A program made the translations under genes and the position numbers. DNA of 64,000 bases from NCBI RefSeq assembly GCF_023093535.1, contig NZ_CP095757.1, positions 1,488,001-1,552,000 of the forward strand, given 5' to 3'. The notes beneath the pieces were generated by a model. That model made no database searches, was not told the origin of the DNA, and worked only from the letters and a program-made list of their open reading frames with translations. The stretch is from Halovivax limisalsi. GTDB taxonomy: Archaea > Halobacteriota > Halobacteria > Halobacteriales > Natrialbaceae. Below are positions 26,148-58,499 of this stretch, one piece after another (the first letter of the stretch is position 1; every line of letters starts with the position of its first letter).

Positions 26148-26560
26148 ACCGCGAGCGAACGGTGCGCGGTTCGGAACGAAGTGAGAACCGCGATATGCGA
26201 ACGGGCGAAGCCCGTGAGCGAAGTGAGCGAGCGGGCCGACGACCGATGTGGAAAGCGCGGCGCGGATGCGCCGCGGGAAGTCGAATCGCGCGGGACCGCA
26301 GGTCCCGCGTACCATGCGAACGGGCGCTTTGCGCCCGTGAGCAGACGGTGAAACCGCGAGACGAGCCGCGCGAAGCGCGGCTGAAACGGAGGGAGGAGAG
26401 CATCGAAGCTAAGCGGGAGCGAAGCTCCCGCGAGGTCGTCGGCGCGAAGCGCCGACTGCAAGCGATTCCGTGGAACCGCCCTGTCCAAAAGAGCGCGTAG
26501 CGCTCTTTTGAAGATTTTTCCGAGGGCCGACGGAGCCGGCCCGCAGAGAAAAAGTTCGGA
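26148..26560 (+). repeat. Hairpin-mosaic intergenic repeat, copy 1 (forward)
   Basis: This block holds at least nine consecutive perfect or near-perfect short stem-loops, among them AACGGGCGAAGCCCGT, a GCGGAGCGGC-type stem near 26262-26277, CGCGGGACC paired with GGTCCCGCG, GGGAGCGAAGCTCCC, and GAGCGCGTAGCGCTC. It ends with the module CGAGGGCC-hairpin-GGCCCGCAG followed by AAAAAGTTCG (26520-26557). The same end module is found at 46655-46695 (reversed) and 57120-57156. No coding potential. It lies between the 3' ends of samp1 and a GNAT gene. Confidence 0.75.
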
Positions 26561-26574
26561 GTGGAAACGTCCGC

Positions 26575-27495
26575 TTACAAATTCGTGAGGTCGATGCCGA
26601 GGACGAAGTCGGGTTCGTCGGAGAGGTCGGCGCCGGCGTAGGAGGCGTCGCTGACGGCCCGCGCGGTCTCGGGGATCAAGACGCGCGTCTCGTCGGCGCC
26701 GATGGCGGCGGCGTCGCGGGCGACGGCGGCGAGTAGCGATTTCGCCGCGGGGACGTCCGCCCACGCGCCGACGCCGTACTCCGCCCAGCGGACCGTCTCG
26801 CCGTCGTCGGTCTCGCGATCGTACGCGCGGCTTCGGTAGGCCATGCCCGAGACGCCGCCCTCGCCCTCGACGGCGAAGACGGCCGTCTCGTCGGCGAGGG
26901 TTTCGAGGTCCGCGCGGGTGAGTTCGCGTGCCGCCCACGATTCCTCGGGGTCCATCGCGAGGCCGCGGAGGTGGGTCCGGGCGTCGCTGGCCGTCCAGAA
27001 GCGCCAGGCGGCGTCGGGATCCGCAGAGACCGCGTGCGGGCCGTCGGCGTCCGGATCTGGTTCGGGCCGGGCGAAGCGAAACTCGGTTTCGGGACCGAAG
27101 CCGCCGGCGCGGGCGGCGCCCAGCGCGGCGACGTTCCAGGAGAACGTCATCAATCGACCGACGGTGGCGCCGCGCGCCGCCGCCCAGTCGAAGCAGGCCT
27201 CGTTGAGTCGCCGGCTGATCCCCTGGCGCTGGTAGTCGGGGTTGACGCGCATCCCCTGGAACCAGGCTTCGTCCGGCGAGAGCATGACGATCTGGACGAT
27301 CCCGGCCACGTCGTCGCCGACGGCGGCGAGGAACGTCCGTTTGCCCGATTCGTCGTCGGCTTCCAGCCAGTCGTGGTAGACGCGGTGGAGGTAATCGCCG
27401 CCCCGATCGGCCCACAGCTCGCTGGTGAAGGCGGCGACGTCCTCGTAATCGTCGTGCGTTGCGCGTCGGATCTCGATGTCTGTCGATCGGGTCAT
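26575..27495 (-). CDS. GNAT family N-acetyltransferase
   Basis: A 306-residue protein. The first 150 residues are a GNAT domain with EIRRATHDDYEDVAAFT at the start and the acetyl-CoA pyrophosphate loop in NPDYQRQGISRRL (Q/R-x-x-G-x-S/A) near residue 88. The second half (about 155-306) is a further acetyltransferase-like region ending DEPDFVLGIDLTNL, as in two-domain family members. The acceptor substrate is unknown. The stop lies 15 bp from the hairpin mosaic. No operon partner. Confidence 0.85.
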   Translation of the reverse strand: MTRSTDIEIRRATHDDYEDVAAFTSELWADRGGDYLHRVYHDWLEADDESGKRTFLAAVGDDVAGIVQIVMLSPDEAWFQGMRVNPDYQRQGISRRLNEACFDWAAARGATVGRLMTFSWNVAALGAARAGGFGPETEFRFARPEPDPDADGPHAVSADPDAAWRFWTASDARTHLRGLAMDPEESWAARELTRADLETLADETAVFAVEGEGGVSGMAYRSRAYDRETDDGETVRWAEYGVGAWADVPAAKSLLAAVARDAAAIGADETRVLIPETARAVSDASYAGADLSDEPDFVLGIDLTNL

Positions 27496-45236: not shown

Positions 45237-46649
45237 ATGAGTACCCAGGAGCAGGCCGGATCGGCGGCGACGGCCGATCGGGACCGACGAACGTGGGACG
45301 TTGTCGTCGTCGGCGCCGGGACGGCGGGCTGTTACGCCGCGGCGACTATCGCCGAGGCGGGCTACGACGTCGTGGTCCTCGAGCGCAAGTCCGCATCCGA
45401 GGCGGGCCACATCGCCTGCGGCGACGCCCTCAAGGGCGCCGACGCGTTCCCCGAGGTCATCTCCAAGTCCCAGCTCGAACCCGCATTCACCAATACGGGC
45501 GTCGACCACGGTCGCTTCGAGATCCCCCAGGAGGACACCGTCCTCGAGATCCCCGTTCCCGGCGAACTCGCCGTCGTCGACCGCTGGGAGTACGGCCGCC
45601 GCGTCATCGAGGGCGCCGGCGACGCGGGTGCCACGTTCCACTACGACACCGTCGTCAAAGACGTCCGTCAGGCCGACGACGGCACCGTCACCGGCGTCGA
45701 CGCCGTCCGGCAGGGCGATCCCCGAACGTACGAAGCCGAGATCGTCGTCGACGGCGCCGGCGCGCTGTCGATCCTCCAGGACAAGGCCGATCTCGCCGGA
45801 TCGACGTTCGACACCAACGTCACCTACTCGCAGTTCTGCTCGGCCTACCGCGAGATCGTCCACGTCGACGAGCCGGTCGAGTGGTCCGACGCCCTGGTCT
45901 TCAAGCCGACCGAGCGCGCCGCCGGCTACCTCTGGTACTTCCCGCGCACCGAGACCGAGATCAACGCCGGGCTGGGCTTTCAGATGACCGAAGAGCCGAT
46001 GCACCTCGTCGACGACCTCAAACGCGACCTCCGGAACCGCCCCGAGTTCGAGGGCGCCCGCGTCGCGGACAAACTAGGTGCCGCCCTCCCGACGCGTCGG
46101 CCCTACGACTCGGCCGTCCATCCCGGCTTCGTCGCGGTGGGTGACGCCGCGGGTCACGTCAACCCCACCACGGGCGGCGGCATCGCCGGTGCCGCCTACG
46201 CCGGCACCTACGCCGCCGAGCAGGCCATCGCGGCGATCGAAGACGGCACCGTCGACGAGGACGCCCTCTGGCGGTACAACGAGCGCGTGATGGACCACTT
46301 CGGCGCGCGCTACGCCGCACTCGACGTCTACAACATCCTCTCGACCGCCGTCGACATCGACGAACTCATGGGCCTGCTCGCGGCCATGCCCGGCGAACAG
46401 ATCGCCGAGGCGCTCTACTCCGGCAGCGCGAACCTGAGCTGGAGCCTCAAACTCAAGGCGCTCCTGAAGGCTCGCGGCCACTACGGCACCGTCTGGAACC
46501 TCTACAAGACCAAACAACGCGCCGACGAACTCCTCGCCCACTACGAGGACTACCCCGACTCGCCCGCCGGGTTCGACGCCTGGCAAGCCGAACGCGACCG
46601 ACTCATGGAGTCGGTCTACGAGACGACGGGCGCCGATCCCAAGTACTAA
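45237..46649 (+). CDS. Geranylgeranyl reductase family flavoprotein (archaeal lipid saturation)
   Basis: A 470-residue FAD enzyme. VVVGAGTAGCYAA (about 22-34) is the FAD-binding fold, ERKSASEAGHIACGDAL follows, and the family blocks YLWYFPR (about 230), GDAAGHVNPTTGGGI (about 303) and a C-terminal helical region are present. Relatives reduce the geranylgeranyl chains of archaeal lipids to phytanyl chains; others act on menaquinone side chains, so the exact target is not fixed. TATA-like aaacgtttt at about 45200-45208. Divergent 2Fe-2S ferredoxin gene next to it. Confidence 0.9.
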   Translation: MSTQEQAGSAATADRDRRTWDVVVVGAGTAGCYAAATIAEAGYDVVVLERKSASEAGHIACGDALKGADAFPEVISKSQLEPAFTNTGVDHGRFEIPQEDTVLEIPVPGELAVVDRWEYGRRVIEGAGDAGATFHYDTVVKDVRQADDGTVTGVDAVRQGDPRTYEAEIVVDGAGALSILQDKADLAGSTFDTNVTYSQFCSAYREIVHVDEPVEWSDALVFKPTERAAGYLWYFPRTETEINAGLGFQMTEEPMHLVDDLKRDLRNRPEFEGARVADKLGAALPTRRPYDSAVHPGFVAVGDAAGHVNPTTGGGIAGAAYAGTYAAEQAIAAIEDGTVDEDALWRYNERVMDHFGARYAALDVYNILSTAVDIDELMGLLAAMPGEQIAEALYSGSANLSWSLKLKALLKARGHYGTVWNLYKTKQRADELLAHYEDYPDSPAGFDAWQAERDRLMESVYETTGADPKY

Positions 46650-46654
46650 CAACG

Positions 46655-46870
46655 AACTTTTTCTCTGCGGGCGCGGCGCAGCCGCGCCCTCGGAAAACCT
46701 TCGATGAAAAGCACTCCTCCCTCCGTTCCAGCCGCGCTTCGCGCGGCTTTCACATCGGTCGTCGGCCCGCTCGGCGACTCACGGGCTCCGCCCGTTCGCC
46801 ACCTCGCGGTGATCGCACTCCACTCGCTCCCCTAGTCGCCGGCCCGCTTGCAGCCCGACACACGGCCTTC
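46655..46870 (-). repeat. Hairpin-mosaic intergenic repeat, copy 2 (reversed)
   Basis: Reverse orientation relative to copies 1 and 3. It begins with CGAACTTTTTCTCTGCGGGC, the reverse complement of the common end module, then GCGCGGCGCAGCCGCGC, and contains AGCCGCGCTTCGCGCGGCT (about 46731-46749) and GGGCTCCGCCC. The order of hairpins is shorter than in copy 1. Located immediately after the geranylgeranyl reductase stop and before the MFS gene; the T-rich start might double as a transcription terminator. Confidence 0.7.
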
Positions 46871-47012
46871 GGCCGTTCGACTGTCCGCGGTGCGTAGTGC
46901 CCTGATCTGTACCTATTCGCGGGTATGCCCGTCGGTGTCGGAGTCGATCGCCACCACTGAGAGTGCTCTCGCCACGACCGGCTATACCCCTCGGCCTCGC
47001 GTAGTCGCACTG

Positions 47013-49646: not shown

Positions 49647-50114
49647 ATGGCAACTGAAAACCGCTCATGGTTTTCGGAAGCCACGTCTCGGGTGCTGTTC
49701 CCACCCGGGACAATTCTAGCGCCTGTCCCCGCGGCAGTTCTGGAGAGCGCGGCTTCCGTTCTGACAATAGCAGTTGAAGATTATATAATTGATGGTGATT
49801 GTGAAACCTGGATGGTCCGGACGGCGGCCGATCGAGACGGGGATGCGGGATTTCGAGCGATGGTCGAACGCCGACCGTGTATTCGATGGGGGATATTCCT
49901 GGGAGACCGTGTTGAAGGTGCCGTATTCAGTACTGATTCTATTACCATCGGGCGAGTCGAATTGCTACGTACGGGTGACCCACGTAACAGAGGAGATCCG
50001 CTCTCGCTAATCTTTGTCAAAAGATACGTACCGAATACAGAAGATGTAGATTGTGGGAATGCTACTATTCGAAGGATTATTGGATATGGTATTCACCGAG
50101 ATATTCCAGTGTGA
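49647..50114 (+). CDS. Hypothetical protein, lower-GC region
   Basis: A 155-residue protein I do not recognise. It begins MATENRSWFSEATSRVL and has mixed strands and helices (SVLTIAVEDYIIDGD, RWGIFLGDRVEGAVFS, PLSLIFVKRYVPN), ending GYGIHRDIPV. No signal, membrane helix or cysteine motif stands out. Codons are noticeably AT-richer than those of genes left of 49140. A cctttttg box lies about 25 nt before the ATG. Convergent with trkH, 18 bp apart. Confidence 0.5.
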   Translation: MATENRSWFSEATSRVLFPPGTILAPVPAAVLESAASVLTIAVEDYIIDGDCETWMVRTAADRDGDAGFRAMVERRPCIRWGIFLGDRVEGAVFSTDSITIGRVELLRTGDPRNRGDPLSLIFVKRYVPNTEDVDCGNATIRRIIGYGIHRDIPV

Positions 50115-50131
50115 CCCAGCGACCATCTGGT

Positions 50132-51679
50132 TTAGTTGTACAAATCCAGTCGCTGGAGAACTGCGCCCACTAGCACCGCAATTGGTATGATTTCTAACCG
50201 ACCGATCCACATGTTCAAGATCAAAACGGCCTTTCCGGTATCGGGGAGATCAGGCCCGGTGATCCCTGCACTGAGTCCAACATTACTCTGGGCGCTCATC
50301 ACGTCGAAGATCACGTACTCCAGGGGATATGCTGATGACAGCGTCCGCAAAAGCACCGCTACGCCAATAGCGAGACCGGCGATCCAGAGGATGAACACGA
50401 CGGTTGCTTCCGTATATTCCCGCTGGGCCTGGTTTTCGCTGAGATTTCGTTGACCGATCTGAAGCCGTCGAACAGCAGCGGTTGGCTGGAGGACATTTCC
50501 GATTTGCCACGCCGTTCCTTTAACGAGCGTGATCACGCGGATGAGTTTCAACCCGCTCACCGTTGAACCAGCCGCTGCGCCGGTGAGCATGCCGAGACAC
50601 GTCAGTAAGGTCGCTCCGGCAGTCCAGACTCGTTCTGTCCCGCCACCGATCGCGGCCGTGCCGAAGCCGGTGTTCGACGTCGCGGAGACGAACTGAAAAA
50701 GGGCGATACGAAACGTTTCTTCGAACGTCTCATATTGGTCGTTGAGCGCGAGGATCACGGTTAACAGGAGCGAACCGATTCCGAACCAGAGGAACACCCA
50801 TCGAGTCTGAATGTCCCGGTAAAAGTTCTGGATTTCGCCCTTGATGATGAGATAGTGGATCGGGAACGCGATACTTCCAGCGACCATCACCGGGACGACC
50901 GCGTACTCGATTAGCGGGCTGTCGTAGTAGCCAATCGAATCTGCGTGCACGGAGAATCCGCCGGTCGCGATTCCCGTCATTCCGTGGTTGATTGCGCCCC
51001 AGAGTGGCATCCCGACTGCAAGAAATAGTGTAATCGAAGCGAGCGTCAGTCCGAGATAGATCTTCCAGATCTCCGTGACAGTGTTGACGACGCTCGGATG
51101 GATCTTCTCGGATCGCGCTTCGCTCTCAAACAGTGTGAGCGAGCCGCTCCCCGGACGGGCGAGGATCGCGACGGTAAGAACGATCACACCGACGCCGCCG
51201 ATCCACTCCGTGAACGACCGCCACCAGTGCAGCGATCGAGGGAGTTCCTCTTCGACGGCGGCCACCGTCAACCCCGTCCCGGTGAACCCGCTCATACTCT
51301 CGAAGAATGCGTCCAGCGGGTTGAGGAAAATCACCGTCGTGCCATCCATCGGCGGCGTGGTTGCCCACGCGGGGAGCGGATCGAGCGAGATCGTCCACGC
51401 GATGAGGAGGAACGGGAGCCCACCGAGAACTCCAACCATAAACCACGCGATAGCAGCCGTTAGCATCGCTTCGGCCTTGCCAGCTCCGCCTTTGCCACTG
51501 TATCGTCGCACCATCGTAATGCCGATACCGGCAATTAGGATTGCCGTGACGGCGAATGCGGGAACTGCGAAGAACTCGTAGTTGACGATGGCGACTGGTA
51601 TCGATACGGCGCTCATCAGAGAAATTACCTGTAGAATTCGACCGATGTCTCGGCCGATGACACGGGACTGAAGCCTCAT
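50132..51679 (-). CDS. trkH: TrkH family potassium uptake channel subunit
   Basis: A 515-residue membrane protein with four pore repeats, each giving a filter glycine: GFTGTGL (about 131), the GMTGIATGGFSVH region (about 230), SATSNTGFGT (about 330) and SAQSNVGLSAG (about 463). K+ passes through the pore formed by these loops; gating needs the cytosolic TrkA ring. Starts only 2 bp after trkA (51682), so the two are co-transcribed. The gene is lower in GC than the surrounding chromosome. K+ uptake is central for salt-in haloarchaea. Confidence 0.93.
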   Translation of the reverse strand: MRLQSRVIGRDIGRILQVISLMSAVSIPVAIVNYEFFAVPAFAVTAILIAGIGITMVRRYSGKGGAGKAEAMLTAAIAWFMVGVLGGLPFLLIAWTISLDPLPAWATTPPMDGTTVIFLNPLDAFFESMSGFTGTGLTVAAVEEELPRSLHWWRSFTEWIGGVGVIVLTVAILARPGSGSLTLFESEARSEKIHPSVVNTVTEIWKIYLGLTLASITLFLAVGMPLWGAINHGMTGIATGGFSVHADSIGYYDSPLIEYAVVPVMVAGSIAFPIHYLIIKGEIQNFYRDIQTRWVFLWFGIGSLLLTVILALNDQYETFEETFRIALFQFVSATSNTGFGTAAIGGGTERVWTAGATLLTCLGMLTGAAAGSTVSGLKLIRVITLVKGTAWQIGNVLQPTAAVRRLQIGQRNLSENQAQREYTEATVVFILWIAGLAIGVAVLLRTLSSAYPLEYVIFDVMSAQSNVGLSAGITGPDLPDTGKAVLILNMWIGRLEIIPIAVLVGAVLQRLDLYN

Positions 51680-51681
51680 GG

Positions 51682-52347
51682 CTATGTACCAGTAAACGCT
51701 GAAACAGCATCCGAAAGCGTCGCGTCGTCCGTGAAAATCGTCACCTCGTCACCGGCGTGGATGGTCGTCTCCCCTCTCGGGGCCCGAAGATTGCCGTTTC
51801 GCTGGAGGGCGACAACCAGACAACCCTCCGGAAGCGCACCGGACTCCAGCGCCGTATTGAGTCGTACGCCGCTCATGGGTGCATCGTTCGTGACGGTCAA
51901 TTCTACCAACTCGGTCGAATCGTCGAGTTCGATGAATTCGCTAACTGTTGGGTACCGGACGGCATGGTAGAGATAGTCGGCGATCAGTCGCTGCGGGTTC
52001 TCGATCAATGTCACGCCGATCTTTTCGAAGACGGGGAGGTTCTCCGGGTCGTGAACGACGCTGACGAGATTCGGGACGTCGTGCTCCTGTGCGAGCAACA
52101 TCACCATGATATTGGTCGCATCCACGTCGGTCGTGGATATGACGGCATCAGCGCGGTCGATCCCCGCGTCTTGGAGCGTTTCGAGATTCGTCGCATCAGC
52201 GTGCAAGACGAGGCAATCGTATTCCGCACCGGCATCGTTCGCCCGCTGTTCGTCCTGTTCTATGACCGCAACATCGTTTCCGTCTTGGACGGCACTCTCG
52301 ATAAGATTCGATCCGATGTTTCCTGCGCCGACGATTATCAGATACAT
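51682..52347 (-). CDS. trkA: TrkA potassium uptake regulatory protein
   Basis: A 221-residue cytosolic regulator. RCK_N Rossmann domain from MYLIIVGAGNIGSNL (GxGxxG at about 7-12) with the acidic residue of the second strand in VAVIEQDE; RCK_C domain from about residue 140 (ELVELTVTNDAPMSG to the end). It binds NAD(H)/ATP and controls TrkH, encoded 2 bp downstream. A clear Shine-Dalgarno sequence GGAGG lies 8 nt before the ATG, unusual here and consistent with its position inside an operon. The preceding Usp gene ends directly at the codon before the ATG. Confidence 0.93.
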   Translation of the reverse strand: MYLIIVGAGNIGSNLIESAVQDGNDVAVIEQDEQRANDAGAEYDCLVLHADATNLETLQDAGIDRADAVISTTDVDATNIMVMLLAQEHDVPNLVSVVHDPENLPVFEKIGVTLIENPQRLIADYLYHAVRYPTVSEFIELDDSTELVELTVTNDAPMSGVRLNTALESGALPEGCLVVALQRNGNLRAPRGETTIHAGDEVTIFTDDATLSDAVSAFTGT

Positions 52348-52788
52348 CTACTTTTCCTCCATTTGTCTTTTTGAAAAGATCACGACTGGCTGATGACGCT
52401 CGGATAGCAACCGGTACGATGAGTTCTCCGTGAGTATCTGCTGAAACCGCGTTTTCGGGCGGGGTGAAAAGGTAATTGCCGATGCGTCGCGTTCGTCAGC
52501 AGCCGCAACAATCTCCTCAACTGTGTCCGTGCCAGCCCGTAGTGCCCGGTTGATATCAGGCCCGTTCGAGAAGTAGTCTTTGACGTACGAGAATACTTCC
52601 TCTGCCCCCTGATTCAAGGCCTCAGGCGAGGCCGGGTCGATGAATCCTTCCAATTGCTCGATAACGAAGACGACTGTAATTTGTTCGACGTCAGAATCGG
52701 GATATTGGTCGAGGGTCTCGCACGTTCGTTCCGCGTCGGCGACGTTCGCTAGTGGGTCGAGGGGACGGATGAAAATTGTATCAGGCAT
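52348..52788 (-). CDS. Universal-stress-protein-like protein of the Trk operon
   Basis: A 146-residue protein with the Usp alpha/beta pattern: strand TIFIRPL at the start, QITVVFVIEQ, a helix AEEVFSYVKDYF, strand DASAITFSP, and the final HQPVVIFSK strand. The ATP-binding G-x2-G-x9-G motif of many Usp proteins is not evident. It resembles the protein encoded at 55215-55654. Its stop touches the trkA start and its start overlaps the zinc-ribbon gene by 8 bp, so four genes (zinc-ribbon, Usp, trkA, trkH) form one unit. Likely binds nucleotide and modulates K+ uptake; the role is inference. Confidence 0.8.
   Translation of the reverse strand: MPDTIFIRPLDPLANVADAERTCETLDQYPDSDVEQITVVFVIEQLEGFIDPASPEALNQGAEEVFSYVKDYFSNGPDINRALRAGTDTVEEIVAAADERDASAITFSPRPKTRFQQILTENSSYRLLSERHQPVVIFSKRQMEEK
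52356..52360 (-). promoter_or_regulatory. Shine-Dalgarno sequence of trkA
   Basis: GGAGG on the minus strand, 8 nt before the trkA ATG and within the end of the Usp gene. Most genes in the window have none; here it supports translation of an internal operon gene. Confidence 0.7.
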
Positions 52789-53236
52789 CGGAACCCTCCT
52801 GCCGATCCGGTTCGGACGTTTCTCTGCGACAGTGTGGGCACGACTCCGCGTTTTCGTCCACGTAGCCGTTGCAGTGTTTACATTTCCGTATCGCCGCGCT
52901 CTGAATGTCACCTAGAAACGCCCAGTGGAGACTCTCCTTGCCACCTGGTCGCTTCTCCCGTGTTACGTGATAAAGGGAGACCAGCTGCGGATCGCCGTCG
53001 AGTCCGTCCTGGGTCGGATCCCGCATTCGCACCAGAGCGTATGCCCCGTGGTCCTCGATTCCAACGACATCGCCGACAGCGCCCGAGAGAATCTGCTCTC
53101 GTATCGGGGTGCGACGTTGCTCGATTCGCTCGTCGATGTATTCGCGGGCCGCTCGAAGCTCCGGAACGGCGAGCGCGCGTAGTTGCTTCACCAGATCTGC
53201 TGGAAGGCAGTCTGGTACCGACCCATCTGAACTCAT
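52781..53236 (-). CDS. Hypothetical protein with C-terminal zinc ribbon, first gene of Trk operon
   Basis: A 151-residue protein. Residues 1-115 are a domain of unknown function: a helical start (LPADLVKQLRALAVPELRAAREYIDERIEQ), then GDVVGIEDHGAYALV and a LYHVTREK-LHWAFLGDI block. A zinc ribbon follows (CKHCNGYV and CPHCRR, about 120-140). The domain without the ribbon recurs at 54782-55153. ATG 53236 has an atatttttg TATA box about 26 nt upstream, which makes this the transcription start of zinc-ribbon/Usp/trkA/trkH. Confidence 0.78.
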   Translation of the reverse strand: MSSDGSVPDCLPADLVKQLRALAVPELRAAREYIDERIEQRRTPIREQILSGAVGDVVGIEDHGAYALVRMRDPTQDGLDGDPQLVSLYHVTREKRPGGKESLHWAFLGDIQSAAIRKCKHCNGYVDENAESCPHCRRETSEPDRQEGSDA

Positions 53237-53468
53237 ACACCACCACTCGGTTGGGGAAAACAAAAATATCTTCCGGTAGAATGCTGTTACGTTTGATACT
53301 AGAGAATATATTTTCCATTCGTTTGCCCGGAGTTTGACCGTGCGTATCGTGTGATATCACTAAATTCTCATCAACCCAAACAGGAATATCGTCGAAGCCC
53401 GTTAGAACGGCAATCGAAACCCAAAGACAAATTTAACTCGATTGAATAACTATCGATTGGGTATAAAA

Positions 53469-54218
53469 ATGGGGGAACGTATCGATGAGACCGACGAGCA
53501 GATATTGTACCATCTCTCACAGGAGGCGCGACACACGTCTGCTCCGGATATCGCCGAGAAAGTAGACGTTTCAGCTCCTACCGTTCGAAATCGGATTCGT
53601 CGACTCGAAGAGGAGGGCATCATCATCGGGTACCCGGCCCACATTAATTACGAACGTGCCGACGGATTGTTGACTAACATGTTTATGTGTAGCACGGCTG
53701 CCACCGATAGGCAGGAACTCGCCCAGCGTGCGCTTGAAATTCCGGGAGTCATCAACGTGAGGGAGATCATGTCCGGGAAAGGAAACCTTCGGATTAAGGC
53801 AGTAGGCACTGATACGGACGATCTCACTCGGATTGCGCAGGACATTACGGCTCTTGGGATCGAAATTGATAACGAGGACCTCATACACCGGGAGTATTTC
53901 CGGCCCTACGCCCAGTTCGGCCCCAGAGACCAGGAACCGATCTCACCAGTAACCGGCGTCGCCGGGCTCGCCGGTGATGCGGATGTTATCGAGGTTATCG
54001 TCAAAGGTGGCGCTCCAATCGTCGGGACGACATTGAAGGAAGCTAACGAAGCGGATTTAATCCCGTCAGACGTGCTCGTGGTGCGAATAGACCGAAATGA
54101 CCAGGCGATCACACCAACTGGGGAGACGGCAATCGAGCAGGGCGACTTTGTTACTATCCATTCGCGGTCCGGGATAACTGAAGAGACGTTAGAAGCATTT
54201 ACTGAAGGACAAAGATGA
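53469..54218 (+). CDS. Lrp/AsnC-type regulator fused to a TrkA-C (RCK_C) domain
   Basis: A 249-residue protein. Residues 5-50 form the HTH (IDETDEQILYHLSQEARHT, then VSAPTVRNRIRRLEEEGII); 65-140 resemble the AsnC ligand-binding domain; 165-245 form a TrkA-C domain (DVIEVIVKGGAPIVGTTLKEA to DFVTIHSRSG). A transcription factor that carries the same sensory domain as TrkA, divergent from the Trk operon, is likely its regulator, responding to a nucleotide or ion signal; this is inference. The 232-bp gap contains gtgatatcac at 53351-53360 and aatttaac before this start. Confidence 0.88.
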   Translation: MGERIDETDEQILYHLSQEARHTSAPDIAEKVDVSAPTVRNRIRRLEEEGIIIGYPAHINYERADGLLTNMFMCSTAATDRQELAQRALEIPGVINVREIMSGKGNLRIKAVGTDTDDLTRIAQDITALGIEIDNEDLIHREYFRPYAQFGPRDQEPISPVTGVAGLAGDADVIEVIVKGGAPIVGTTLKEANEADLIPSDVLVVRIDRNDQAITPTGETAIEQGDFVTIHSRSGITEETLEAFTEGQR

Positions 54219-54291
54219 GAAAAATCGGATACTTAAAATCCCGTGTCAGTACCCCTCTCCCCACGAACCGGTAAAATATGGGTGGGAAATA

Positions 54292-54531
54292 ATGGAATCG
54301 ACAGTCCACCAATTATTTATTCCGGAATCGATTCTAGCGCCCATGAAACAGCTCCTGTCGGATTTTCTCCTCTCTCAGGAAAAGGAGTCCGAACCCGGAG
54401 GTGCTTCCCTCTTCGAATGTCGCCATTGCGGAACCAAGTTTGACGAAGACCGGAACTACTGTACGGCCTGTGGGAAAACCGAAATTGCGACCTATTCATT
54501 CGATGTGAATTGTGGGACCGCAGACTCCTGA
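54292..54531 (+). CDS. Small zinc-ribbon protein
   Basis: A 79-residue hypothetical protein. A helical N-terminal half (QLLSDFLLSQEKE) is followed by a double CxxC ribbon (CRHCGT at about 44-49 and CTACGK at about 58-63) and a short polar tail. No family recognised. Lower GC than the main chromosome. No strong promoter box is evident immediately upstream, but acttaaaatc at 54231-54240 may serve. Probably an uncharacterised DNA- or protein-binding factor. Confidence 0.6.
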   Translation: MESTVHQLFIPESILAPMKQLLSDFLLSQEKESEPGGASLFECRHCGTKFDEDRNYCTACGKTEIATYSFDVNCGTADS

Positions 54532-54781
54532 TTTACGGATAGCACCTCTCTGGTCTACAATCGTCTGTGGAAGGAGAGAACCCGGCTCTAGAATGACTTC
54601 GCGTACCCAGGGTGAGACCGCTTTAGCCAGGGGATCCGGAGGAAAGGTTGTAAAGAGGAGGAGTTCGGTTTAAATATTTTAAAGGGCCACACCGTACTTA
54701 GTTCTCAGTCCGGAATCTTCGATACTCACCGGCGAGGAGTCACCGACAGGAATTATGGGCATGCGGTACCGATAGTCGCGC

Positions 54782-55153
54782 ATGAGTTCCGATCCGGCCG
54801 AGCCCACTCCTCCGGAGGGGCTACCCGACGAGCTCGCCTCCACCTTACACCAGTTACGTCCCGAAGAGCTTCGAAGAACGATAATTCACGCACAGGAACT
54901 CCTCAATTACAATCATGAAAGTCCATCACCCGTGGAACCCAAACCGGGAGATGACATACTCAGCGTTACCGAGCACGAAGGGTACACGGAAGTCATCAAA
55001 TACGTAACTGAGACGGTGAACGGGACGGAAAGCCGGGTGGGGCCCTTCCACTATCACGTCACCGAGGAACGCCATCCGGATGGCACTGTAAAACCGTATT
55101 GGAAATTTATCGGCGATATTAACCTCGATGACGAAGAAAAGCGAAATAGTTGA
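54782..55153 (+). CDS. Hypothetical protein, paralogue of the zinc-ribbon operon protein without ribbon
   Basis: A 123-residue protein sharing layout with residues 1-115 of the gene at 52781-53236: MSSD start, LPDELASTLHQLRPEELRR helix, GDDILSVTEHEGYTEVI, and a final FHYHVTEERHPDGT-WKFIGDI block. The zinc ribbon is missing, so the domain can stand alone. Function unknown. An AT-rich tttaaatattttaaa element at about 54668-54682 lies upstream, farther away than a leaderless promoter would need. Confidence 0.65.
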   Translation: MSSDPAEPTPPEGLPDELASTLHQLRPEELRRTIIHAQELLNYNHESPSPVEPKPGDDILSVTEHEGYTEVIKYVTETVNGTESRVGPFHYHVTEERHPDGTVKPYWKFIGDINLDDEEKRNS

Positions 55154-55214
55154 TTTGATTGTCGTCTGTGCCAAATTACCAAGCTGATATACTGCACGTT
55201 CTCCTATTTACCGT

Positions 55215-55654
55215 ATGGGTAGTCCAAGTGAGTCTCCGCGATCGGACTTCTCGCCAGCGTTCTCGTTCCAGTTGCAAACGAGACTGACGCCAGAAAGACC
55301 GCAACGTCGTTAGAACCGTACGATCCCGCTCAGGTTACGGTGCTCCACGTCGTCGAAAAGGGTGGCGGTGCGCCGGATAAGACTCCTGTCGCCCAATCGG
55401 AGGAAATCGCGGAGGAGCCGTACGCCGCCTTCCGCGAAGTGTTTCCGGATGCTGACTTGCTCACCGCATACGCTCGGGATGTGGTCGGGGCGATATTCGA
55501 GGTTGCTAATGATATCGACGCGAGTGCGATCACGTATCGTTCTCGTGGCGGAAACCGTCTCATGCAATTTTTGACGGGCGATCTATCGCTCAAACTCGTT
55601 ACCGAGGCAGACCGGCCGGTCATCGCATTACCACGTTCGGATACGAACGCTTGA
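55215..55654 (+). pseudogene. Universal-stress-protein-like gene with N-terminal frameshift
   Basis: ATG 55215 opens a frame (MGSPSESPRSDFSP) that soon stops. The continuing frame, without any start codon for its first strand, encodes VLVPVANETDARKT, then VTVLHVVEKGG, DASAITYRSRGG and ADRPVIALPRS, a normal Usp fold similar to the one at 52348-52788. Adding one base near 55255 joins both parts into a complete protein of about 147 residues. A shortened product from GTG 55340 would lack the first strand and helix. Disruption or sequence error cannot be told apart here. Confidence 0.65.
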
Positions 55655-55881
55655 TCCGGACGCTCGAATAAGCTGAGACTTCAATGGCGGCCAAAGAGTC
55701 GGTCATGAAGTGAACGCGGTGATGGGTACTCGGCCAATAGAACTGGCGTTTCGAGGGCCTCGAGAATTTTGAATACGAGCACCCCTGAACGGTACGGGAC
55801 AGAAGACAAAACAATGGAGCAGCTATTCCCCATCCACTTGCCGAGCAAAAAACTAACTTCGTCGGCTCGTGTCACTTGCTC

Positions 55882-56358
55882 ATGGAACTCGACCCCACCG
55901 ACCGGACGATCCTGTATCTCCTACAGGGCGAGAAGGGAACGAGCCTCACGCACGACGATATCGCCGACCGGATCGACGTCTCGTCCAGTACCGTAAGCAA
56001 CCGCATTCAGCAACTCAAAGAAACCGACGTCCTGCTCGGATACAGGGCAAAAATCGACTACGAGAACGCAGGGATTCCCCACCGCATTCTGTTCGTCTGT
56101 ACGGCACCGATCAGCGACCGCAAACACATCAGCGAGGCTGCGATGGATATTACGCACGTCGTAAATGTACGCGAGTTGTTGACTGGAACGCAAAATATCC
56201 ACATCGAGGTCGTCGGGACCGACGCGGAGGATATCGAAACGACCACGCAGGAGTTAGACGAACTCGGACTCGTAATCGAACATTCCGAGATACTTCGCCG
56301 GGAGTTGCACCAGCCATTTGATGATTTCGGAAAAGATTTGGCGGATGAATCATCTTGA
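55882..56358 (+). CDS. Lrp/AsnC-type transcriptional regulator
   Basis: A 158-residue regulator. HTH at 3-50 (LDPTDRTILYLLQGEKGTS, then VSSSTVSNRIQQLKETDVLL) and an AsnC-type ligand-binding domain at 65-140 (VVNVRELLTGTQNIHIEVVGT). It is closely similar in plan to the first 150 residues of the regulator at 53469 but lacks the TrkA-C domain. ATG 55882 is supported by an aaactaac box about 27 nt upstream. Possibly controls the nearby Usp gene or the Trk set; inference from neighbourhood. Confidence 0.85.
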   Translation: MELDPTDRTILYLLQGEKGTSLTHDDIADRIDVSSSTVSNRIQQLKETDVLLGYRAKIDYENAGIPHRILFVCTAPISDRKHISEAAMDITHVVNVRELLTGTQNIHIEVVGTDAEDIETTTQELDELGLVIEHSEILRRELHQPFDDFGKDLADESS

Positions 56359-56490
56359 TGGATTCGAAGCCCGCCCGTATTAAGGCTCGACTTTCTATAT
56401 TGTCTTTCATCCAGAATTAAACATTGATGCAGGCGGGTGCCAACGATACTATTCAGTATTCTTAACCGTATGAGCGCACTGTTACCGTCA

Positions 56491-56763
56491 ATGAGCACGG
56501 ATTCGTCAACAGCCGATGATCGCCGATCAATGACCGTAGCGATCGTCCGGGCTGTCGCCAGCGAGAAAGAGGTCGATCCGGTCGACCTCTCCCCGCCCCT
56601 CGATACCGTGATCGATGCCGATGCCTTGAACGACCTCTTCAAGGCGCCGAAGAAATCGGCCGGGCGAGTTTGCTTCGAGTACAGCGGGTGTCGGATACAG
56701 GTACTTGCGGATGGGACGGTTGAGGTCGAACCGGCCGAGGCGGCTGCGGATTTTTCCCGTTGA
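56491..56763 (+). CDS. HalOD1 output-domain protein
   Basis: A 90-residue protein that is nearly all HalOD1 domain: TVAIVRAVASEKEVDPVDL, then PPLDTVIDADALNDLF, VCFEYSGCRIQVLADGTVEV. Similar in type to the protein at 20997-21410. Starts at 56491 (ttcttaacc box about 27 nt before) or 56470. Last gene of the lower-GC region; the hairpin mosaic follows its stop. Confidence 0.78.
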   Translation: MSTDSSTADDRRSMTVAIVRAVASEKEVDPVDLSPPLDTVIDADALNDLFKAPKKSAGRVCFEYSGCRIQVLADGTVEVEPAEAAADFSR

Positions 56764-56929
56764 AACAGTGTTTCGTCGTGGTCGATTCTGACGCAGATCT
56801 AGCGGTCAATCTCTACTGTCTCTCGTAGACAACGTGGCCGCAGGCTCAAAATCAGGGGGCGATTTGAGCATCTCGCTCCGCCTCGGTCGGATTGGTCCAC
56901 CGTTCAGTACAGAGCGTGCTGTGAGCACA

Positions 56930-57160
56930 CTCTCCGGGAGCGACCGGAGGGAGCGAGCGGGCCGACGATCGACCCGTAGGGGAGGGAGGAGTGCTTTTCG
57001 TCGACGCTGAGCGGGATCGAAGATCCCGCGAGGTCGTGGGCGCTTCGCGCCGACTGCTCGAGGGAACTGCGTTCCCTCGCTGTCCAAAAGAGCGCTTCGC
57101 ATTCTTTTGAACATTTTGCCGAGGGCCGGCTTCGCCGGCCCGCAGCGCAAAAGTTCGGTT
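56930..57160 (+). repeat. Hairpin-mosaic intergenic repeat, copy 3 (forward)
   Basis: Runs from about GGGAGCGACCGGAGGGAGCG to AAAAGTTCGG. Hairpins include GCGGGATCGAAGATCCCGC (57010-57028), GGGCGCTTCGCGCC, CGAGGGAACTGCGTTCCCTCG (57059-57079) and GGGCCGGCTTCGCCGGCCC (57123-57141). Module order matches copy 1 (gag-gga-gga, stem, CGAGGTCGT, stem, CTGTCCAAAAGAGCGC, stem, end module), but the stem sequences differ. The preceding gap 56764-56929 holds nothing I can assign. Confidence 0.75.
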
Positions 57161-57224
57161 TGCATCCACACGTCGCAGCGACTGTCCGATTACGACGGCC
57201 GAAAAATACGGTCCGTCGTCCCTC

Positions 57225-58499
57225 CTACGGACGTTGTTCGGCGATCTCCTCGATAGCGCCGGAGAGCGTGTCGATCCCGTGCTGGATCGTCGGCTCGTCC
57301 ACGTCGAAGGTGGCGGTGTGGTGGCCGCCGGGGTGGTCGGTGCCGACGCCGACGTAGCACGCGAGGCCGCCGTCGTCCTGGACGGTCTTCATGAGGAACG
57401 TCGCGTCCTCGCTGCCGCCGAGGCCGGCCTCGTCGACGACGCGGTCGACGCCGTCGACGTCCGCGGCGACCGAGCCTACGATCTCGCGCAGTTCGTCGTC
57501 GCTCTCGGCGCTGGGGGCTTCGGCGCCGACCTCGATCTCGACCTCGCAGTCGTGCATCGTCGCGGCGGACTCGAAAATCCGTTCGAGTCGATCGCTCGTG
57601 TAGCGCATGAGATCGGTCGTCTGGCCTCGAACCTCGGCGACGAGCGAGGCTTCCTCGGCGACGATGTTCGCGGCGGTGCCGCCCTCGACGACGCCGACGT
57701 TGACCCGTGTCGGGCCGTCTGAGTTGCGGGGGATCGCGTAGGCGTTCTGGATCGCCGTCCCGAGGGCCTGGATCGCGTTGCGCCCCTTCTCCGGTTCGGC
57801 GCCGGCGTGGGCGGGTTCGCCGGTGAACGTGGCCTCCAGGTGGCGCACGGCGAGGAAGTCCTCGACGCCGGCGACGACGGTGCCCGTCGGGTGGTCGAGG
57901 CCGACGTGGGTGGCGAGCAGGTAGTCGACGTCGGCGATGTGCTCGCTCTTGGCCATCGCCTTGCCGCCGCCGATGACCTCCTCGGCGGGCTGGAAGAACA
58001 CCTTGAGCGTGCCCGAAAAGTCATCGCTCTCGGCGACGGCCTCGAGGGCGCCGACGCCGATCGCGGCGTGTGCGTCGTGCCCGCAAGCGTGCATCGACTC
58101 GCCCGTTTCCGAACGGAATCCCTCGGCGGCGGGGAGATGATCCGCGTCGTCCGACTCCTCGCGCGGGAGGCCGTCGATGTCGACCCGAAGGCCGACGACG
58201 GGTCCCTCGCCGCGTTCGAGCACCGCGACGGCGCCGGTGTAGCCGCCCGCGAGCCGGTCGAGGACGTCGGGATCGACGCCGGCGTCGCGGGCGCGGTCGT
58301 ACCAGCGATCGAGCTCGGTTTCGTCGGGGACGGCGAGACGGTTCGCCCCGTCGATCGCGTCCGGACCGACGTGGAGGGCGTCGAGGTCGATCTCGCGGAG
58401 CCGTTCGACGATGCGCGCGGTCGTTTCGAACTCGCGCCAGGCGGGTTCCGGGTGGCGGTGGAGCTGCCGGCGGAACGAGACGGGATCGCTCGATGACAT
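57225..58499 (-). CDS. M20 family amidohydrolase (AbgB/HipO-like)
   Basis: A 424-residue metallopeptidase-like hydrolase that removes acyl or aminobenzoyl groups from amino acids. Metal ligands: MHACGHDAHAAIG (about 135-147), the QPAEE pair (about 169), and THVGLDHPTG near 196. The dimerisation domain lies at about 215-330. The N-terminus with FRRQLHRHPEPAWREFETTARI is typical for the family. Substrate not determinable. A gtaaaat-type box at about 58521-58527 precedes the ATG on the minus strand. Confidence 0.9.
   Translation of the reverse strand: MSSSDPVSFRRQLHRHPEPAWREFETTARIVERLREIDLDALHVGPDAIDGANRLAVPDETELDRWYDRARDAGVDPDVLDRLAGGYTGAVAVLERGEGPVVGLRVDIDGLPREESDDADHLPAAEGFRSETGESMHACGHDAHAAIGVGALEAVAESDDFSGTLKVFFQPAEEVIGGGKAMAKSEHIADVDYLLATHVGLDHPTGTVVAGVEDFLAVRHLEATFTGEPAHAGAEPEKGRNAIQALGTAIQNAYAIPRNSDGPTRVNVGVVEGGTAANIVAEEASLVAEVRGQTTDLMRYTSDRLERIFESAATMHDCEVEIEVGAEAPSAESDDELREIVGSVAADVDGVDRVVDEAGLGGSEDATFLMKTVQDDGGLACYVGVGTDHPGGHHTATFDVDEPTIQHGIDTLSGAIEEIAEQRP

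Follow-up and report, generated by a model that had tools for sequence, protein, structure and literature searches.

A candidate cis-acting 3'-UTR RNA element placed directly past stop codons in haloarchaea

A family of multi-stem elements, each of about 140-250 nt, stands directly past the stop codons of many genes in the archaeal order Halobacteriales, in a fixed sense orientation and with internal stems that covary. On balance we consider it probable, from comparison of the sequences, that these elements are cis-acting RNA modules of haloarchaeal 3' UTRs, which form or protect the 3' ends of mRNAs and have partly spread as a mobile cassette. The family is apparently undescribed so far, and it adds a widespread structured RNA to a whole archaeal order in which conserved cis RNAs appear to be few.

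The window, by which we mean the whole stretch of 64,000 nt that was analysed, covers positions 1488001-1552000 of a single-contig genome of 3.89 Mb and holds three copies. A preliminary description had reported three blocks with a common end module next to gene 3' ends, and had left open whether they were mobile elements, structured RNAs or terminator-like repeats. The blocks exist where they were described: a covariance model (R2), run on the window with filters off, gave exactly these regions on the sense strand, namely 26454-26560(-) in copy 1 (E 5.2e-10), 46650-46767(+) in copy 2 (E 1.2e-26), and 56960-57039 and 57048-57160(-) in copy 3 (E 2.4e-10 and 3.9e-9). The next-best match was an echo of copy 2 on its reverse strand (46628-46706, E 1.1e-4), and the rest had E values of 0.011 or higher; a second model (R1) matched copy 2 at E 1.5e-27. 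The distance from the stop codon to GAAC, calculated from the ORF ends and the block sequences, is 17 nt in copy 1, 4 nt in copy 2 and 68 nt in copy 3. The orientation, by contrast with the preliminary description, has to be reversed: the blocks had been read as the reverse complement of the element, and the supposed end module comes first, at the 5' side, when the element is read along the strand of its neighbouring gene. The copies, their upstream genes and the parts of copy 1 (P1-P3 are stems) are as follows.

26148..26558, minus strand: copy 1, whole element, a mosaic with inserted hairpins (R2 match, alignment A1)
26575-27495, minus strand: GNAT-like gene upstream of copy 1 (GNAT by Pfam, L074); the element lies 17 nt past its stop
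26510..26557, minus strand: P1 hairpin of copy 1, GAACUUUUUC...GGAAAAAUCUUC, formerly the "common end module" (sequence, R2 match)
26410..26509, minus strand: extra hairpins of copy 1 in the interval from P1 to the linker (alignment A1)
26382..26409, minus strand: conserved linker and 5' arm of P2 in copy 1, CTTCGATG..CTCTCCTCCCTCCGTTTC (sequence, alignment)
26230..26253, minus strand: 3' arm of P2 and start of P3 in copy 1, CCACATCGGTCGTCGGCCCGCTCG (sequence, alignment)
46650..46882, plus strand: copy 2, compact element (R1 and R2 matches; outer end judged by eye)
45237-46649, plus strand: FAD-dependent oxidoreductase-like gene upstream of copy 2 (Pfam, L066); P1 begins 4 nt past its stop
56904..57164, minus strand: copy 3, a mosaic with the outer end GTGTGCTCACAGCACGCTCTGTACTGAAC, similar to the outer end of the mobile subtype (R2 matches; end common to mobile copies)
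57225-58499, minus strand: ORF upstream of copy 3; the element lies 68 nt past its stop

Read on the strand of the gene, an element consists of the stop codon, 1-5 nt, P1, a linker, P2, P3 and sometimes a fourth module. P1 has the form GAACUUUU-N-C-N-CUGCG-hairpin-CUCGG-N'-AAAACUUC, in which a U4 tract is paired with an A4 tract next to a C.C mismatch and an asymmetric internal loop. The linker that follows is GAUGAAAAGCNCUCCUC, and within the family of the window's genome, the Natrialbaceae, it is near-invariant as GAUGAAAAGCACUCCUC. P2 is a second stem with a variable hairpin and a conserved UC/UC mismatch, and P3 is GC-rich (GUCGUCGGCCCGCUC-hairpin-GCGG). The fourth module, CAGCC/CUGCC..CCCCG-hairpin-CGGCC, was found in 48 of 97 distinct elements examined, all but two of these 48 being from Natrialbaceae. 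Copy 2 of the window is the compact form of this plan, while copies 1 and 3 are mosaics in which extra hairpins are inserted after P1; one GAGC..GCTC hairpin among the insertions of copy 1 is also found in copy 3 and in L005 (alignment A1). Extra hairpins between P1 and the linker are common to window copies 1 and 3 and an element near 2310000 of the same genome (L002, L004 and L005), and look as if stem-loops had been added like modules. For the internal loop of P1, kink-turn and sarcin-ricin readings were dropped by eye, there being no tandem G.A, and a SECIS reading was dropped because haloarchaea are not known to use selenocysteine.

P1 and P2 were tested for covariation, with positions set by the conserved TTTT/AAAA and linker letters rather than by pairing. 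In P1 (88 distinct rows from 105 matches), the covariation of the pairs x5, x4, x2 and N was each reached in 0 of 2000 shuffles, and the same held for the pairs C0, Y:R, c4, n5 and n6 of P2 (76 rows). The N:N' pair of P1 takes all four Watson-Crick types among the 88 rows (G:C 59, C:G 12, U:A 5, A:U 4), as does x4 (G:C 59, A:U 13, C:G 10, U:A 2); in P2, n5 is G:C in 33 rows, C:G in 28, U:A in 6 and A:U in 1, with the adjoining UC/UC mismatch kept. The hit list and the MAFFT alignment A4 both derive from model R1, which held the P1 pairs and thus biases selection towards them, but the tested P2 pairs were absent from R1. In A4, built from 63 of 85 prepared references after very long hairpins and near-duplicates had been removed by hand, 91.3% of the cells pair, compared with 76.6% after shuffling, and double-change cells number 157 against 40.2 (sd 6.2) in shuffled and 15-37 in slid versions, kinship inflating such counts but equally so in the slid versions. 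P2 is partly unclean in this alignment, where two of its pairs have 27 and 16 non-pairing cells, respectively, out of 58. Folding energy gave z -3.1 for one full element and only -1.6 for another, so that energy alone would have missed the structure. The proposal of a structured RNA is thus strongly supported by the covariation of P1 and P2. Covariation would also be expected for a DNA hairpin recognised as a single strand. The fold is one selected as RNA or as single-stranded DNA; that the elements keep a single, sense orientation at stop codons speaks for RNA.

Matches below about 45 bits were excluded from the counts of structure and position. Among the UTR-type copies, 61 of 86 begin at -3 to 8 nt relative to the stop codon that ends a sense ORF of at least 100 codons, compared with 119 of 3332 shifted controls (3.6%); the 86 include five rows without a stop (L037, L042, L047, L054 and L058) that are anchor errors caused by a TTTT in the gene end and for which a looser ORF rule gives a stop at a distance of 1-4 nt. 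By this looser rule, 69 of 105 matches lie at -2..7 nt. No antisense placement at a stop codon was found among 87 copies, and the commonest junctions were TAA|C (13) and TAG|AACC (9). According to a rough gene finder that relies on coding bias, the upstream gene was near and on the same strand in 65 of 91 cases, and the next gene was convergent in 40, tandem in 40 and missing from the locus in 11, the median gap after the core being 178-187 nt, with 178 nt for the tandem genes. Element pairs less than 300 nt apart were tail-to-tail in 7 of 7 cases among the 150 matches listed from other families. These arrangements of genes and pairs indicate that the element marks the ends of transcription units. 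The earlier suggestion of terminator-like repeats is supported as to placement, by the position at the stop codon and at such unit ends. Two marks of a structured cis RNA of an mRNA 3' UTR, covarying helices and a fixed orientation and position relative to coding sequence, are present. At L015 and at L108, the space between convergent genes holds a tail-to-tail pair of complete elements.

The preliminary description had called for a genome-wide covariance search. In the window's genome, model R1, built from 16 elements of seven genomes, gave 31 matches with E<=1, and 27 of these had E<=0.01. A scan with a 20-base pattern for the end motif GCCCGCAGNNNAAAAGTTCG found 12 genome sites at up to 2 mismatches and 9 at up to 1, with 1 in the reversed control; one of the 12 (L011) has no element around it. 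Beyond this genome, matches were found in at least 116 of 125 genomes of the family, in at least 265 of 392 genomes of the order, spread over nine families (one by a single weak match only), and in at least 26 of 246 genomes of a phylum sample, all 26 within the window's own order. In 16 chosen genomes outside the family, copies at E<=0.001 ranged from at least 1 to at least 43 per genome. All these census counts are lower bounds, since in the large searches filters were strict and few candidates were scored per genome. The blocks are therefore neither three unrelated stretches nor a known annotated repeat family, as there are hundreds of copies and Rfam has no match: Rfam 15 gave none in the window at gathering scores, and none at E<=1 in L061, L062, L118 and L122. 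The matched stretches in four named plasmid records carry no annotation, and no such element is named in the titles or first lines of abstracts of the open-licence papers listed on haloarchaeal repeats, termination, structured RNAs and RNA decay, which is weak evidence. A virus origin was considered and set aside: the linker had 0 exact matches in viral contigs, which says little about divergent copies.

Pfam names 20 of the upstream proteins, mostly housekeeping ones, including L10e, an AAA ATPase (PAN-type), DP2, a TFIIS-type factor, chaperonin, GDH, IF-2, GyrB, acyl-CoA dehydrogenase and Aminotran_4, among others. The element thus sits flush with the stop codon on core genes of the ribosome, chaperonin, proteasome ATPase, gyrase and replicative polymerase. 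Seventeen groups of homologous upstream genes recur with an element in more than one copy, and element identity is 0.69 within these groups (84 pairs) vs. 0.588 otherwise (4572 pairs); the groups of PAN, DP2, KaiC-like, Aminotran_4 and FAD oxidoreductase genes span families. Within the window's genome, UTR-type copies differ from each other. Occupancy among orthologs is patchy. For L10e, with 30 of 42 gene-bearing genomes covered, 4 of 30 loci clearly carry the element, 25 do not and one (L174) is cut by the contig end and unreadable; the element is present in 3 of 4 genomes of the window's family and clearly in 1 of 26 loci of other families. Among 30 PAN loci, three (L198, L199 and L221) have a model match beside the stop codon, and a weak match lies near L203. 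This patchiness indicates that the element is dispensable at any one gene. At the 3' ends of PAN genes in other families (L202, L206, L207 and L211), more divergent look-alikes stand directly past the stop, with ACC-U(5-6)...hairpin...A(4-6) and in some a CCAAAAA-type linker thereafter, a similar plan that R1 does not match.

A second subtype is a unit of about 155 nt with the same P1-P3 core and its own ends. It occurs in 4, 3 and 2 copies in three genomes, 97-99% identical and at unrelated sites, which indicates that it has moved recently; its flanks are 20-30% identical in most comparisons, with one right flank at 0.53 and one at 0.34. None of 8 mobile copies lies at a stop codon. As to terminal inverted repeats, inspection by eye showed only imperfect ends, and no consistent target duplication was seen. 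Near-identical copies at unrelated sites, the mark of a MITE or small mobile repeat, were found in this subtype alone, and the earlier idea of a non-autonomous mobile element is supported for it only. The subtype is an example of a mobile cassette that has its core in common with fixed 3'-UTR parts. At L149, the mobile copies adjoin a repeated CTGTACTGAACGGCAACTACG(C/T)GTGCGAAC, which is present at other copies too and may belong to the target or to some longer unit.

Several known systems share some of these traits. The REP/BIME sequences of enterobacteria are palindromes that lie scattered at 3' ends and influence the stability of mRNA, and their hallmarks are the REP sequence and linkage to a RAYT (Y1) transposase. 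Going by this general description, our elements are likewise dispersed palindromes at 3' ends, but differ in sequence, in a larger multi-domain fold and in standing immediately past the stop codon. The omega-RNA of IS200/IS605 TnpB is located at a gene 3' end, as our elements are. Its archaeal form is, as far as the available text goes (PMC12558985), likewise a structured RNA, whereas the genes upstream of our elements are housekeeping genes rather than tnpB. According to the accessible portion of PMC3119063, the PATEs of Haloquadratum walsbyi have near-terminal palindromes like those of IS605 elements and, with MITEs and SMRs, are short transposase-free haloarchaeal repeats with palindromes, as ours are; the main type described here is distinguished from PATEs by its fixation to stop codons and its internal covariation, and the mobile subtype is nearer to an SMR or MITE. 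In Haloferax volcanii, T-stretch termination has been shown and T5C terminates well (Berkemer et al. 2020, PMC7237163). The termination sites in the part of that paper available to us resemble the element in 3'-UTR position, U-tract and hairpins near 3' ends; they have the longer tested T-stretch (T5C), with no conserved multi-stem family described there, whereas the element has T4, a conserved linker and covarying P1 and P2 flush with the stop.

From the structure and placement established above, we infer a function in which the element would be transcribed as the 3' UTR of the mRNA. Once folded, the tail would make the polymerase stop or pause, or would offer a site for 3' cleavage after the last ribosome is released at the stop codon, and it would shield the new 3' end from 3'-5' decay. 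In haloarchaea this decay may be assigned to RNase R, which the accessible text of PMC2841640 gives as their candidate 3'-5' nuclease, because they lack both an exosome and poly(A). Copies would have spread within lineages, partly via the mobile cassette form, and would persist wherever a gene profits from a strong or protected 3' end. A simpler possibility, which we hold to be doubtful, is that a T-tract past the stop ends transcription and that the inverted repeat lets it act from both sides. T-stretch termination in Haloferax (Berkemer et al., PMC7237163) speaks for it, as do the divergent relatives L202 and L206 with T6C right past the stop. In addition, the T4 of P1 occupies the position of a T-tract in orthologs without the element, where T4+ occurs within 80 nt at 25 of 53 loci vs. 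0 of 59 for the final 80 coding nucleotides, although the split is rough and the 53 "element-less" loci include at least the model-matched L203 and L221. However, most copies have only T4; a T5+ run occurs in 11 of 87 in the first 20 nt after the anchor at P1 and in 7 of 87 within 150 nt after the core, so that the element is no simple T-stretch terminator. Moreover, structure past T4 covaries in P1 and P2, which requires that RNA to be made, while a stop at U4 in P1 would leave it unmade. A plain T-stretch terminator is thus inadequate for the whole element, and the shortness of T4 relative to the Haloferax T5C, together with the downstream covariation, favours a 3'-UTR module that forms or guards the end.

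It is rather unlikely, in our judgement, that the family is a non-autonomous mobile element, MITE- or REP/BIME-like, that prefers gene 3' ends, with a structure serving a transposase and any effect on mRNA a by-product. The dispersed multi-copy distribution, the patchy ortholog occupancy and the mobile subtype with its near-identical copies in three genomes would fit this, but UTR-type copies are flush with stop codons and never antisense there, elements of orthologs are more alike than others, some of them across families, and the covarying pairs are internal ones, not only those at the ends; an unsystematic look also noticed no transposase beside the copies inspected. We regard as still less likely an RNA device that translation termination allows to fold and that thereby couples the end of translation to the formation of the 3' end or to the fate of the mRNA: as P1 starts 1-5 nt past the stop, its 5' arm would lie within the footprint of the terminating ribosome and P1 could close only after release. 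If true, such folding would be a new class of archaeal RNA device, in a clade without exosome and poly(A). The near-invariant unpaired linker, the internal loops conserved across families and the common set of housekeeping genes could alternatively reflect a small RNA that acts in trans, or a regulated switch in the 3' UTR that binds a protein or metabolite at the P1 loop, the linker or the UC/UC mismatch and co-regulates a regulon; we find this improbable, since the host genes form no coherent pathway and the 3' location makes classical riboswitch control unlikely. As a putative end-forming or end-protecting module, the element offers a concrete, mutable test object for the question of how mRNA 3' ends are set and protected in haloarchaea, which have neither an exosome nor poly(A).

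Around copy 3 of the window we also observed a change in base composition: positions 50000-57000 have a GC content of 53-57%, compared with about 68% around them, which suggests that this stretch may be foreign or integrated, with copy 3 at its edge.
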